Part shown: piece after piece, positions 678 through 10,352 of the stretch
Layout of the letters: every line of letters starts with the position of its first letter
Numbering within the stretch: position 1 is the first letter of the stretch
Assembly (NCBI GenBank): GCA_029553475.1
Contig: JAKPKV010000082.1
Span: forward strand, 1 to 64,000
DNA: 64,000 nucleotides
Direction of reading: 5' to 3'
From: Armatimonadota bacterium
Lineage (GTDB): Bacteria > Armatimonadota > Hebobacteria > CAIYQO01
Notes under the pieces: generated by a model
Databases searched by the model: none
Told to the model about the DNA's origin: nothing
The model's input: the letters and a program-made list of their open reading frames with translations, nothing else
Position numbers and translations under genes: made by a program

Positions 678-2882
678 TCACGCCTCCTCCAGCAGGTAGC
701 ATTTCGTCTCCGGGGCGTCCAGCGCGCAGCGGATCTCCGCCGTCCGATCCGCGACGAGGGCGCCGGTGATGAGGTCGGTGACGCGGCGCGGGCCGGGGAG
801 GGCGAGGCGGCGCGGGCCGCTCTTCAGCGAGTGCAGCGCGAGCAGGCTGCTGTCGGCGAGGAGCACGTCATTTTCCTCGCAGTAGATGTGCGCGCCGGCG
901 AAGCGGGCGATGCCGCGCCAGAGCGCCGCCGGCAGCGGGGCGGCGGTGGTGAAGAGGGCGTGGTAGCCCGCGAACGATTTCAGCGCCAGCCCCACGTCGT
1001 CGCCGCCGAATTTCGACCAGGCCCAACCGAGCGGCGCGCCGTCCGTCGGGTAGAGCACCGGGCCGTAGCTGGCGGCGCCGCCGTAGATGGTGTCGGCGGG
1101 GAGGCCGGCGGTGATGGGGTGGGTGAAGTCGCAGAGCTGCACCCGCCGTGGGTAGTTCACCCGCTGACAGCTGAACTGGAAGCCCGTCAGCCGCGCCGCG
1201 TGGTCGGCGCTGATGGTGCGGCCGTCGCTGATGCCGGACCCCGGTCCCCACACGATCACCCGGCCATCGCGGCAGACTTTCTCGTGCAGCAGCGCCAGCC
1301 GGGCGTCATCCACCCGGTAGAGATTCGGGAAGTAGAGCACGCGGTGCGCGGGAAAATCGTCGCGCGCCAGATCATCCCACAGGTAGATGCGGTACGGCAC
1401 GCCGCAGCGGCTGATACCCTGCTTCTGCTCCCACATGATCGCCTCGTTCATCACGTGGCCGCTGCCGTTCGTTTCCAGGCTGGCCCGCTCGTCGAGGATC
1501 ATGGCGATGCCGGGCACGGCCGCGTGCGGCCAGTGTACCGAGGCTTTCAGCACCGCCAGCTGCCGCGCCACCACGTCGTGCATGGGCGGGTCGCTATAAT
1601 AGTCGGCGTTATGATCGGTCAGGTAGTTCATGAAGCCGCGGGTGAGCGCGGTGGCGAGGTCGCGCCAGGTGACGGCGGCGAACTCCCGCAGGTCGCGCGT
1701 CATGCCGCAGTTCCGCACGCCGCCGGCGTAGGTGCGGATGTCCTGCTCCACGAAGAAGAGCTTGTCCCCGCGTAAGGCGGTGCTGTCGGCGATGCCTTCC
1801 GGCTCAAAGATGCCGCCGGCGCCGCGGGCCTGGTAGTCATACGGCGTGCAGAGGCCGTCAATGGCGGGCAGCGCCAGCAGTGCCGTCACGTCCATATTGC
1901 CGGAGCCGGCGGCGGTTTCCGGGTAGACGATGGGCCAGGAGTCCGCCATGCTGAAGAAACCGTGATTGGACCACCCCTGCATGGGCAGTTTCAGCGTGTC
2001 GTGCAACTGCAGGCAGTGCGGCCCGCCGGCCTCGCGCGAGGCGTTCGCCTGCCGGGTGAGCAGGTCGGCGTAGAGCGTCTGTTGCAGCAGGAACCAGTCG
2101 CGCAGCGGGCGGTTCTCCCGCTCGTCCTGCCAGTAAAGCAGCGCCGCCACGTCACGGCGCGGGCCGTTGAGCCGATCGGTCGGCACGCCGATCGTCGCCA
2201 GCGACAGGTTGTCGTCGCCATACGCCCGGCGCAGCGCCGCATCGTCGCCGTAGCGCTCCGTCAAAAAACGCCGCCAGCGCGCCACCATGATCTCGCTGTG
2301 GTCGTACAGCCAGCCGCCGCAGAGCGGGCCGTGCGAGCCCTCGCACAGGTGGTAGTTGATGAAGCCCAGGCAGCGGCCCCCCCACGGGCGCGACAGGCAG
2401 AAGCGGATGTAGGCGGCGCAATAGTCGGCGGCCAGGTGCTGATGCAGGTCGGAGGCGAGCGACGGGTGGCGCTGGCGTTCGCCGGTCTCCAGCACGGCGC
2501 ACTGCTCCGGATGCAGATCATACCAGCTCTGCGGCGGGCGCGCCTGGAAGCGGATGATGAGGTAGGCATCGGGCCGCTGCGCCAGCACGAAGGCCGGCCC
2601 CTCGTCCAGCTTCTCCAGCGAGAGGTGCTGCGGCGCGGCGAAGATGGTGTCGCCCTCCCAGAAATTGTCCTGCGTGAACTTGTGCTCCCAGCGCTGCGGC
2701 ACGCTCATCAGGTAGATGTCCAAATCGTGCCGGGCGAAGCGGCGCACGCACGCGCGCCACACCGGGTCAAAGTCCGGCCGGCCCATCGCCGGCGGCGAAT
2801 ACATCGCCAGGTTGCGCGGCACGCCGTCAATGCTGACGAGGGTGCGGCCGTTCACGCAGGTGAGCTGGAGGGTGCTGCGCAT
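678..2882 (-). CDS. GH42-like beta-galactosidase-type glycoside hydrolase
   Basis: A 734-residue protein without a signal peptide, so probably cytoplasmic. The first ~400 residues look like a TIM barrel of the GH42/GH-A type. Candidate catalytic acids are Glu181 (in INYHLCEGSHG) and Glu379 (in LFFVEQDIRTY), the latter sitting where a nucleophile would be. Residues ~500-650 (HRVLYFPNLYRVDDARLALL, then VIVWGPGSGISDG) resemble the beta-galactosidase trimerisation (GATase-like) domain, and a short beta tail closes the protein. GGAGG lies just upstream of the ATG at 2882. It is transcribed alone toward the tRNA gene. The substrate cannot be read from the sequence; GH42 proteins act on beta-galactosides, but divergent members have other specificities. 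Confidence 0.75.
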   Translation of the reverse strand: MRSTLQLTCVNGRTLVSIDGVPRNLAMYSPPAMGRPDFDPVWRACVRRFARHDLDIYLMSVPQRWEHKFTQDNFWEGDTIFAAPQHLSLEKLDEGPAFVLAQRPDAYLIIRFQARPPQSWYDLHPEQCAVLETGERQRHPSLASDLHQHLAADYCAAYIRFCLSRPWGGRCLGFINYHLCEGSHGPLCGGWLYDHSEIMVARWRRFLTERYGDDAALRRAYGDDNLSLATIGVPTDRLNGPRRDVAALLYWQDERENRPLRDWFLLQQTLYADLLTRQANASREAGGPHCLQLHDTLKLPMQGWSNHGFFSMADSWPIVYPETAAGSGNMDVTALLALPAIDGLCTPYDYQARGAGGIFEPEGIADSTALRGDKLFFVEQDIRTYAGGVRNCGMTRDLREFAAVTWRDLATALTRGFMNYLTDHNADYYSDPPMHDVVARQLAVLKASVHWPHAAVPGIAMILDERASLETNGSGHVMNEAIMWEQKQGISRCGVPYRIYLWDDLARDDFPAHRVLYFPNLYRVDDARLALLHEKVCRDGRVIVWGPGSGISDGRTISADHAARLTGFQFSCQRVNYPRRVQLCDFTHPITAGLPADTIYGGAASYGPVLYPTDGAPLGWAWSKFGGDDVGLALKSFAGYHALFTTAAPLPAALWRGIARFAGAHIYCEENDVLLADSSLLALHSLKSGPRRLALPGPRRVTDLITGALVADRTAEIRCALDAPETKCYLLEEA

Positions 2883-3259
2883 GGGAGCCTCCGGTGTGCG
2901 AGTGAGCCGTGGTCATCTGTAATGACCAGGGAAACCTTCGCCGAAAGGGAGCGGGTTCCTGCCGGGGGCGTCGTGGAGCGGTGGGGACGGGCTGGTTGGG
3001 TTCGAGTACGATGGGCGACTACCCCTGTTACTCCCCGATGGCTTTTATGCGTTTTCGCGAAACGGGTGGCATGCGCATACAGGCCAGGTGACCAAACCAT
3101 CCCGTTCGTAGTGAGGCACGCAGCGGAGCGGAGTGCCGTGCGAGTATGGGAAAACGTACCGATTGCATAACTGAACGGCACTCCGCTCCGCTGCGTGCCT
3201 CACTACGAACGAGTTCTAGTGTTACCGGGGACGGAGGGGGATCCGCGCCGGCTCGCCCC
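2883..3259. other. Gene-free stretch carrying palindromic repeats
   Basis: A 377-base stretch between the GH42-like gene start and the end of lysS. It contains the perfect inverted repeat annotated separately (3103-3211). Just left of it, about 3085-3109, is a segment whose minus strand reads ACGAACGGGATGGT, a word that recurs at about 28957-28970. No coding region is supported. Confidence 0.6.
3103..3211. repeat. Perfect 37-bp inverted repeat, each arm a hairpin (family R1)
   Basis: The arms 3103-3139 and 3175-3211 are exact reverse complements separated by 35 bases. Each arm also folds on itself: GGCAC (3115-3119) pairs with GTGCC (3133-3137) around a 13-nt loop. A diverged single arm occurs at about 10168-10201 with a changed but still paired stem. 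It lies between the two minus-strand genes, GH42-like and lysS. Confidence 0.85.
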
Positions 3260-4753
3260 CTACGCCTCGTCCTCCTCCTCCGTCCCCTTCTCCGGCTTCA
3301 ATTGCGGAAAGAGGATGACGTCGCGGATGCTGGGGCTGTCGGTGAGGAGCATGACCAGGCGGTCAATGCCGATGCCGAGGCCGCCGGTGGGGGGGAGGCC
3401 GTATTCGAGGGCGCGGAGGTAGTCCTCATCCATCGGGTGGGCTTCTTCGTCGCCGGCGGCGCGCTCGCGCACCTGCTCTTCAAACCGCACGCGCTGGTCA
3501 AGGGGGTCGTTCAGCTCGCTGAAGGCGTTCGCCAGCTCGCGCCCGGCGGCGTAGACCTCAAAACGCTCGGCCATCTCCGGGTCGTCGCGCCGGCGTTTGG
3601 CCAATGGCGAGATGGCGGTGGGAAAATCGGTGATGAAGGTGGGCTGCACGATCTGCTCCTCGACGAATGCTTCGAAGAGGTTGTTGATGAGGGTGGACAG
3701 GGTGGCGCGCTCGTCCACGTGCACCCCCAGCGCGCGGCAGAGCGCCTGCGCCGACGCGAAATCGCGCAGCTTGGACGTGTCAATGCCGCCGAATTCGCGC
3801 AGCGAATCGAAGAGCGAGATGCGCCGCCAGGGCGGGGTGAGGTCAAGGGTCTGCCCCTGGTACGCGAAGACCAGCGTGCCCCGCGTCGCCAGCGCGGCGG
3901 CGGCGAAGAGCTCCTCGCACAGGCGCATCATGTCCTCGAAATTCGCGTAGGCCTCGTAGACCTCCAGCATGGTGAATTCGGGGTTGTGCTTGGTGCTGAT
4001 GCCCTCGTTGCGAAAATTGCGGTTGATCTCGTAGACCTTCTCCAGCCCGCCGACGATGAGGCGCTTCAGGTACAGCTCCGGGGCGATACGCAGGTACAGG
4101 TCAATGTCCAGCGCGTTGTGGTGGGTGATGAAGGGCCGCGCGGCGGCGCCGCCGGGAATGGCCTGCATCATCGGCGTCTCCACCTCCAGGAAGCCACGGC
4201 CGTCGAGCAGCGCGCGGAGGGCCTGCACGGCGCGGCTGCGCGCGATAAAGGTCTCGCGCACCTCCGGGTTGACGATCAGGTCCACGTAGCGCCGGCGGTA
4301 GCGCGTCTCCACGTCCTTCAGCCCGTGCCATTCTTCCGGCAGCGGGCGCAGCGCTTTGGTGAGAATGTCGAAGCTGCTGACATGCACGGAGATTTCCCCC
4401 GTGCGCGTGCGAAAGACGTAGCCCTCGATGCCCAGGATGTCGCCGATATCCACCAGCTTCAGGCGTTCGTAGGCGTCCGCGCCCAGGTCGTCGAAGCGGA
4501 AAAACCCCTGGATTTGCCCGGAGGCGTCCTGCAGGTGCATGAAGGTGACCTTGCCCTGGCCGCGGCGGCTCATCACCCGCCCGGCCACGCGCACCGTCTG
4601 GTGCTCCATCGCCTCGAAATTCTCGAGGATCTCCTTCGCCAGGTGCGTGCGCCGATACTCCGTCACTAGGAAGGGATTGCGCCCCTCCGCCTCCAGCGCC
4701 CGCAGCTTTGCCAGCCGCTGCGCCATGATCTCGTGCAATACGCCGTCCGCCAC
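3260..4753 (-). CDS. lysS: Lysine--tRNA ligase (class II)
   Basis: Charges tRNA-Lys with lysine in the cytoplasm. The 497-residue protein has the standard order: an N-terminal helix, an OB-fold anticodon-binding domain (~55-155, VRVAGRVMSRRGQGKVTFMH), then the class II catalytic core. The core contains motif 2 (NRNFRNEGISTKHNPEFT), preceded by RIAPELYLKRLIVGG, and motif 3 near the C-terminus (GGLGIGIDRLVMLL). Length is normal for the family. The start is a GTG at 4753 with AAGGGGAA about 8 bases upstream. A weak minus-strand promoter (GCGACA, 18 bp, TATAGT at 4805-4810) precedes it. It is divergent from the small gene at 5024. Confidence 0.97.
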   Translation of the reverse strand: MADGVLHEIMAQRLAKLRALEAEGRNPFLVTEYRRTHLAKEILENFEAMEHQTVRVAGRVMSRRGQGKVTFMHLQDASGQIQGFFRFDDLGADAYERLKLVDIGDILGIEGYVFRTRTGEISVHVSSFDILTKALRPLPEEWHGLKDVETRYRRRYVDLIVNPEVRETFIARSRAVQALRALLDGRGFLEVETPMMQAIPGGAAARPFITHHNALDIDLYLRIAPELYLKRLIVGGLEKVYEINRNFRNEGISTKHNPEFTMLEVYEAYANFEDMMRLCEELFAAAALATRGTLVFAYQGQTLDLTPPWRRISLFDSLREFGGIDTSKLRDFASAQALCRALGVHVDERATLSTLINNLFEAFVEEQIVQPTFITDFPTAISPLAKRRRDDPEMAERFEVYAAGRELANAFSELNDPLDQRVRFEEQVRERAAGDEEAHPMDEDYLRALEYGLPPTGGLGIGIDRLVMLLTDSPSIRDVILFPQLKPEKGTEEEDEA

Positions 4754-5255: not shown

Positions 5256-5528
5256 GTGCTCGTACTCGCATACGGGCTGCGCTTCTTCACCTCGCGTCTG
5301 ATCGCCAGGGGTAGCGGGTCGTCACCTTGTCCCGTGTCGTGTAGTCCGCGCCCTCCGCGGCGCGTGTGGCCAACATGCGACACCGTGTCCGACACCACCA
5401 TCGGCGGGCACGGTGTAGAAATGCGGAAACACGCGCCGCGGAGGGCGCGGACTACAGGGCAAGTAACACCGCGCTCGGCTTCAGCACACCGTTTCGAGCA
5501 CGAGTACGAGTTACGAGCACGAGTACGA
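5256..5528. repeat. R2 element: inverted GAGTACGAG/GAGCACGAG repeats
   Basis: CGTGCTCGTACTCG at the left (about 5255-5268) is complementary to the repeated CGAGCACGAGTACGAG at the right (5495-5510, and again 5514-5528). The same arrangement recurs at 32013-32122, where the right block again begins TTTCGAG. The short degenerate 6-mer units (CGAGNA) and the inverted layout at two distant loci indicate a dispersed element. Confidence 0.7.
5341..5455. repeat. R3 element: perfect 27-bp inverted repeat with internal hairpin
   Basis: The arms 5341-5367 and 5429-5455 are exact reverse complements. The 61-base interior carries an inner hairpin (5381-5415, CACCGTG with CACGGTG). The interior core (about 31 bases, 5383-5413) recurs at 20572-20602 with 2-3 mismatches, again preceded by GTAGTCCGC. 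This identifies a dispersed family. Confidence 0.8.
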
Positions 5529-10107: not shown

Positions 10108-10167
10108 AGGGGAGTAGTTCGGAGGGGGAGGGCGGGGTTCCTCCTCCGAAAATAGCATCCGCGTGTT

Positions 10168-10201
10168 GGTAGTGCGCCACGCAACGGAGTGGAGTGGCGC
10201 T
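10168..10201. repeat. Diverged single-arm copy of repeat R1
   Basis: GTAGTGCGCCACG, then a 13-nt loop, then GTGGCGC. Stem GCGCCAC (10174-10180) pairs perfectly with GTGGCGC (10194-10200). Compared with the copy at 3109-3137 the stem bases differ on both sides but stay paired, and the loop differs by two transitions. Confidence 0.75.
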
Positions 10202-10352
10202 GCTCCGGCCGTAATCATCGTGCCTGCGCCGGGGGACAGTCAACGCCTGGCCCGGTGAGGCTGACCGCGCGTCGCGGCGCGGGTCGGCAGGACGCGCCAG
10301 GTGGCGGCCAGGCGTCAACAGTCCCCCGTACCGGGGCGGTGAGCGCGGGGTA

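Follow-up and report, generated by a model that had tools for sequence, protein, structure and literature searches.

A probable REPIN in an Armatimonadota genome, and GTAG-tagged REPs matched to a clade of RAYT genes in several phyla

The feature at positions 3103–3211 of the window, by which we mean the whole 64,000-nucleotide stretch of Armatimonadota DNA analysed here, is very probably a REPIN, in which two inverted GTAG-tagged REP hairpins surround a short interior and which is probably moved by a RAYT encoded elsewhere. REPINs as a kind of element are already known, and the main interest lies in the matched set of REPs and RAYTs that spans several phyla. The relevant parts of the window are as follows.

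3085..3102, plus strand: left flank, CAGGTGACCAAACCAT-CC, a repeated sequence
3103..3139, plus strand: REP arm 1, with tag GTTCGTAGT and full arm CGTTCGTAGTGAGGCACGCAGCGGAGCGGAGTGCCGT; GTAG at 3108–3111, stem GGCAC at 3115–3119, 13-nt loop at 3120–3132, stem GTGCC at 3133–3137
3140..3174, no strand: REPIN interior, 35 nt
3175..3211, minus strand: REP arm 2, the exact reverse complement of arm 1
10165..10200, plus strand: diverged single REP arm of subtype R1v, with tag GTTGGTAGT; 7-bp stem GCGCCAC at 10174–10180, 13-nt loop at 10181–10193, stem GTGGCGC at 10194–10200

The initial annotation had described a perfect 37-bp inverted repeat at 3103–3211 whose arms are themselves hairpins, and the window sequence agrees, with the two arms complementary at 37 of 37 positions, extendable to 46 nt at 91%, and each able to form a 5-bp stem with a 13-nt loop. 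The diverged arm that it had placed near 10168–10201, with the stem GCGCCAC/GTGGCGC, perfect pairing and a 13-nt loop, is likewise present, at 10165–10200. In both the 3103 and the 10165 arms GTAG stands at one end of the short palindrome. Folded as DNA, the 109-nt unit forms a single long hairpin of −57 kcal/mol (z −16.2), and folded as RNA it reaches −89.1 kcal/mol (z −16.0), and in neither case did any of 200 shuffles fold as well. The hairpin of a lone arm (GGCAC/13 nt/GTGCC) is of unremarkable stability given its composition (z −1.45 as DNA and −0.34 as RNA), so that the folding energy of a lone arm is by itself no evidence.

The window also contains a second inverted repeat at 5328–5468, with GTAG near its outer ends and 64-nt arms that are 78% complementary and separated by 13 nt; because the congeneric genome G001 has matches to parts of it at several places, it is probably another REPIN family. 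Just past the 10165 arm, at 10230–10328, lies the inverted repeat CGGGGGACAGTCAACGCCTGGCC / GGCCAGGCGTCAACAGTCCCCCG.

The genome that the window comes from (G000; 5.27 Mb in 194 contigs) carries dozens of copies of these arms. A blastn search with the element gave 100 matches at E<=10, counting both strands and both arms, among the 40 of 89 first-look candidates that were scored, and the best non-self match had an E value of 9e-40. A pattern that fixes the tag and loop but leaves the stem free, allowing at most one mismatch, found 53 arms in G000 and none with the reversed control, and in the window together with 37 further stretches of the same genome 62 matches differ from the window arm at 11 positions or fewer. 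Sixty-eight arms in G000 have the tagged left part: 24 are paired, 8 are short single hairpins, 16 have a GGGGACTGTCCCC-type module after them, 8 have a loop that contains a CTTGTCCCCCGTAGC-type module, and 12 are arranged otherwise. The inverted doublet with an interior is thus a frequent unit in this genome, as the 24 paired arms show. Interiors resembling 3140–3174, with an RGTTACCG core, are present by eye in other doublets, and the left flank has 18 genome matches at up to two mismatches, the majority of which directly adjoin REP arms. Single arms such as that at 10165 are probably decayed remains.

The two modules occupy near-constant positions, that of the CTTGTCCCCCGTAGC type lying at offset 28 within the REP loop in 6 of 8 cases and that of the GGGGACTGTCCCC type just past the REP arm, at offset 41–42, in 13 of 16 (L041–L077). 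These hairpin modules may be site-specific insertions, or they may be parts of one composite that has spread. We also considered whether the conserved left and right flanks delimit a larger MITE and set this aside, as the right flank resembles the interior of the R1c REPIN; because of this resemblance, judged by eye and uncounted, the copies look like mosaics. Three REP subtypes can be told apart in G000, namely R1a (the 3103 doublet), R1v (the 10165 arm) and R1c; counting by hand from the matches to another pattern gives 28 R1a-like, 15 R1v and 16 R1c arms and 5 others, although this pattern is unspecific (64 matches, with 34 found by the reversed control).

Covariation between the 3103 and 10165 arms had been put forward as a sign that the structure matters. 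Two copies alone are weak evidence of this kind because these arms differ in REP subtype, and the argument is carried instead by the wider set of arms. At least 112 stretches from a named genome collection hold 179 arms, of which 88 are distinct, and 65 of the 88 distinct arms among the matches listed have a full Watson-Crick 5-bp stem, compared with 20.0 on average and at most 32 when the 3′ halves are shuffled 2000 times. The commonest stems among the distinct arms are GCCAC/GTGGC (24), GGCAC/GTGCC (23) and GCGAC/GTCGC (9), with GCTAC/GTAGC (5), CGCAC/GTGCG (3) and GTTAC/GTAAC (1) being rarer; the remaining 23 have at least one stem position that is not a Watson-Crick pair. Adding the two window arms gives a table of 90 rows (89 distinct), in which 95.5% of stem cells are paired against 79.7% in shuffles, and in which there are 56 two-sided stem changes where shuffles lead one to expect 16.7, figures that are not probabilities because the shuffles ignore relatedness. 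Control structures slid by one to three columns reach at most 53.9% paired and at most 15 two-sided changes, and at pair 15-31 all deviations are mispairings (15 of 89). The alternative stem types are spread over several phyla in the listed arms; the pattern fixes both tag and loop, which accounts in part for their conservation among these arms. Compensatory changes that keep the REP stem are therefore seen well beyond the window, which bears out the claim of the initial annotation: the copies are neither limited to these two nor without covariation.

A search for a transposase with PF01797 (Y1_Tnp) pointed at first in a different direction. It found ten Y1 genes in G000, none of them with a REP arm beside it, and across 59 Y1 loci from 12 arm-bearing genomes and G023 no strict arm was found, with one loose arm match and three tag-only matches; by the same profile there is no Y1 gene in G022 or in 6 of the 14 named-record genomes. 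Clustering of the ORFs near about 314 arms yielded no recurrent transposase, mostly repeat-derived frames and ordinary genes. These negatives, together with the conservation of flanking sequence on both sides of the doublet, would suit a MITE mobilised by a non-Y1 transposase unrelated to RAYTs. That explanation is largely refuted already, and we regard it as scarcely credible, since the negative was obtained with an unsuitable profile and since R1-type arms do lie beside RAYTs in four genomes (G000, G064, G067 and G068). In two Verrucomicrobia, ORFs situated between arms encode RAYT-like proteins (L179 and L200), each directly flanked on both sides by R1-type arms. Both score above the 80-bit curated cut-off of the RAYT model NF047646 (90.7 and 93.8), as do L326 (93.1) and L325 (94.5), and neither L179 nor L200 is matched by PF01797. 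The idea of REPs without a RAYT was thereby overturned by NF047646 matches flanked by arms; the earlier negative was a fault of the profile, because PF01797 is too narrow for this group of RAYTs and misses them.

The search of G000 with NF047646 gives five matches, two of which have REPs on both sides and neither of which is among the PF01797 matches in that genome.

C90 RAYT: ORF L351:1072-1881, minus strand, with R1v doublets on both sides, GTTGGTAGTGCGCCAC-13-GTGGCGC
C4 RAYT: L352/L342, the protein starting from 2124 in L352, flanked on each side by R1c doublets

C4 scores 82.3–83 bits, above the cut-off, and C90 76.7–78.5, just under it. The HUH motif (HYH) and the tyrosine of YxHxNP (Y145) are invariant in all eight aligned proteins of the clade to which both belong; we take these to be the catalytic residues, as in NF047646 proteins generally. 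Each of the two genes is bracketed by its own REP subtype, C90 by REPINs of the subtype of the 10165 arm and C4 by R1c doublets of the form GTTCGTAGT-CGCGCC-GCAGCCGCAGCAA-GGCGCG, whose tag GTTCGTAGT is common to R1c and R1a. In G000 none of the RAYTs found has REPs of exactly the 3103–3211 subtype, R1a, on both sides. The RAYT for R1a may be C4, with which it has the tag in common, or C90, with which it has the loop in common, or one that has been lost or is unassembled. The RAYT-like gene that the initial annotation had suggested looking for is thus present, as C90 and C4 in this genome and as others in other phyla.

A profile built from four seeds (C90, C4, L179 and L200) separates nine RAYTs, at 135–350 bits, from all others, which score at most 61.8, and in a tree of the 36 proteins scoring at least 30 bits (of 43 distinct) a branch with support 100/98 sets the nine apart from the rest. 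In the same tree C90 is joined to L326 from Chloroflexota (96/94), apart from C4. Within 700 bp, a GTTNGTAGT tag with a hairpin accompanies seven of the nine clade RAYTs (L179, L200, C90, C4, L326, L325 and L348, the exceptions being L256 and L327) compared with none of 34 others, a linkage that is partly selected because four of the nine are seeds and two were found by their flanks; L179 and L200 are not independent evidence, having been discovered through the flanking arms. Among the five non-seed members of the clade three are flanked. L326 has REP arms on one side alone, and the REPs beside L325 (Chloroflexota) and L348 (Poribacteria, partial) have 4-nt loops. The bare GTTNGTAGT tag lies near 2 of the 34 RAYTs outside the clade. 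Across 22 arm-bearing genomes, NF047646 has a match at E<=0.001 in 17, of which 12 exceed the cut-off, and none in G059, G065, G070, G072 and G121; the two RAYT-less genomes with a stated completeness are 61–63% complete.

The arms themselves are patchily distributed. Among 291 Armatimonadota genomes the pattern occurs in eight, with 53 arms in G000, 49 in G022, 24 in G001, 3 in G077 and a single arm each in G002, G044, G059 and G121. The at least 112 stretches of the named collection are mostly from Anaerolineae and other Chloroflexota, with smaller groups from Verrucomicrobia, Lentisphaerae, Poribacteria and Armatimonadetes, and two Rhodothermus marinus plasmids have an arm that agrees with a typed consensus at 97% over 34 nt. 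Searches of phage and viral collections brought up little, with 10 weak phage records, the best at E 0.1, and one viral contig.

Several of these occurrences differ in layout. The Rhodothermus marinus plasmids (L282:6001-6084 and L283) carry a facing pair of dissimilar REP arms, next to which lies a gene of unknown function; in one uncultured Anaerolineae genome (CALDFY; L160:27-257 and L162:5025-6814) R1-type arms are arrayed head to tail with a period of about 40 nt; and in the JAUQQB and Thermoflexus sinensis records (L157, L158 and L159) an R1-type arm is framed by a GAAAAGCCCTTT ... AAAAAG(GGC) inverted repeat, a short framing that differs from the doublet arrangement.

Four sites were compared with G001, and no copy was seen there at any of them. 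At the place orthologous to 10165, where both flanks lie on one G001 contig, the arm is missing together with the block that follows it, including the 10230–10328 inverted repeat. The flanks of the 3103 doublet are on different G001 contigs with no arm in the stretches examined, and for two further doublets (C126) the comparison is one-sided or split, again with no arm. Of the four orthologous junctions, one has both flanks on a single contig; these differences represent turnover, in which insertion and deletion are indistinguishable. Relative to window positions 2880–3270, the neighbours are separated on the G001 contigs C144 and C59, with another gene beside one of them, and because gene order differs in this way a rearrangement boundary may fall in the intergenic stretch that holds the 3103 doublet.

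Where the copies lie relative to genes raises the question of whether the doublet is mainly a functional RNA, a bidirectional 3′-end stabiliser or terminator under host selection whose spread is incidental. Gene calls came from a rough codon-usage script, by which about 80% of bases are predicted to be coding, and they put 41 of the 43 merged sites between predicted genes and 2 inside one; the intergenic sites comprise 24 in tandem, 12 convergent and 5 divergent. The window copy lies between two minus-strand predicted genes, 221 bp from the start of one and 49 bp from the end of the other (3260–4753), and, as noted above, the doublet would be very stable as RNA. The intergenic placement, the excess of convergent over divergent sites and the proximity to a gene end all speak for this role, against which stand the occurrence in only 8 of 291 Armatimonadota genomes, the lack of a copy at the four orthologous G001 junctions and the linkage of REPs to RAYTs. 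We consider it improbable that such a role is the main one, and note that the functional-RNA and REPIN readings are compatible rather than exclusive.

The same data bear on whether these doublets are inert relics of past RAYT activity, now subject only to duplication, recombination and decay. No in-clade RAYT was found in G022, with its 49 arms, or in G001, with 24 arms in an assembly that is 78% complete, and many copies in G000 are composite or truncated, all of which a relic population would display. Identical or near-identical doublet arms at many sites, and two RAYT genes in G000 that keep the catalytic residues, argue the other way, and we think it rather unlikely, if a serious possibility, that mobility has ceased altogether.

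The likeliest mechanism for the probable REPIN is mobilisation in trans, by a RAYT, as single-stranded DNA. In single-stranded DNA, such as that of the lagging strand, the two arms would each fold into a separate hairpin; a RAYT encoded elsewhere, as an HUH Y1 endonuclease, would recognise GTAG and the hairpin, cleave beside it and transfer the doublet to another intergenic position. An alternative, more stable fold of the doublet sequence would be the full-length 37-bp foldback.

This scheme follows precedents in other bacteria, for each of which we draw on excerpts of the published account. According to the excerpt of PMC8266576, the TnpA-REP of E. coli and others binds single-stranded REP DNA with GTAG and cleaves beside the hairpin. 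The elements described here resemble that system in having a GTAG that precedes a hairpin whose upper stem is interrupted, and in RAYTs with HUH and Tyr (PMC8266576); the stem and loop sequences are different, and the transposase similarity is weak, C90 and C4 each matching E. coli TnpA-REP (PDB 4er8) at E ~1e-4. As set out in the excerpt of PMC3116915, it is the REPIN doublet that moves, lone REPs are remnants, and every group of REPINs adjoins its own RAYT. The likeness to the REPINs of Pseudomonas fluorescens SBW25, as far as that excerpt describes them, extends to the inverted doublet with an interior, several groups each next to a RAYT, singlets as remnants, and a long hairpin or ‘clover’ as alternative folds (PMC3116915). 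The differences lie in the sequences, the phylum, the RAYT clade and the 13-nt loops found here, and in that R1a has no assigned RAYT.

The families surveyed by Di Nocera et al. (2013), in the excerpt of PMC3733652, share with ours the GTAG end, the stem-loop, the occurrence as singles, dimers and groups and the link to RAYTs. That survey reports GTAG repeats in Proteobacteria, Cyanobacteria, Chloroflexi and the PVC group, and Armatimonadota are not named in the excerpt. The GTAG-15 family is reported to have large loops of 9–15 nt (PMC3733652, excerpt); R1 may be identical to another of the published families, for which 24 consensus sequences exist. The survey includes a GTAG family of Thermomicrobium roseum, and GTAG repeats on a plasmid of this species were rejected as members of the R1 family on 140 kb of the 918-kb plasmid, R1 differing from their 9-bp stem and 3-nt loop. 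A weak search of the openly licensed literature gave no REP paper that pairs with Armatimonadetes or Anaerolineae, and a text search for the letters of the tag gave, among the matches listed, titles unrelated to bacterial repeats.

These observations place REPIN/RAYT systems in Armatimonadota, and they carry a caution for surveys of mobile elements, as PF01797 used alone misses the RAYT group of C90, C4, L179 and L200 and scans that rely on it risk a false report of no transposase. As to how the pattern arose, we hold only tentatively, at somewhat less than even chances, that matched sets of clade RAYTs and GTTNGTAGT-tagged REPs, mostly with 13-nt loops, have moved between phyla (Armatimonadota, Chloroflexota and Verrucomicrobiota, with the Rhodothermota plasmids included by their arms alone), and that REPINs persist or multiply where there is no in-clade RAYT, as in G022, whose sole RAYT falls outside the nine-member clade. 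If this is so, REPINs of the G022 type would be either orphan populations or served by a RAYT of another clade. Genomes with REPINs in which no matching RAYT was found offer a test case for REPIN persistence without a RAYT, and the matching of REP subtypes with RAYTs in at least three phyla allows the rules of recognition, in tag, stem and 13-nt loop, to be compared.
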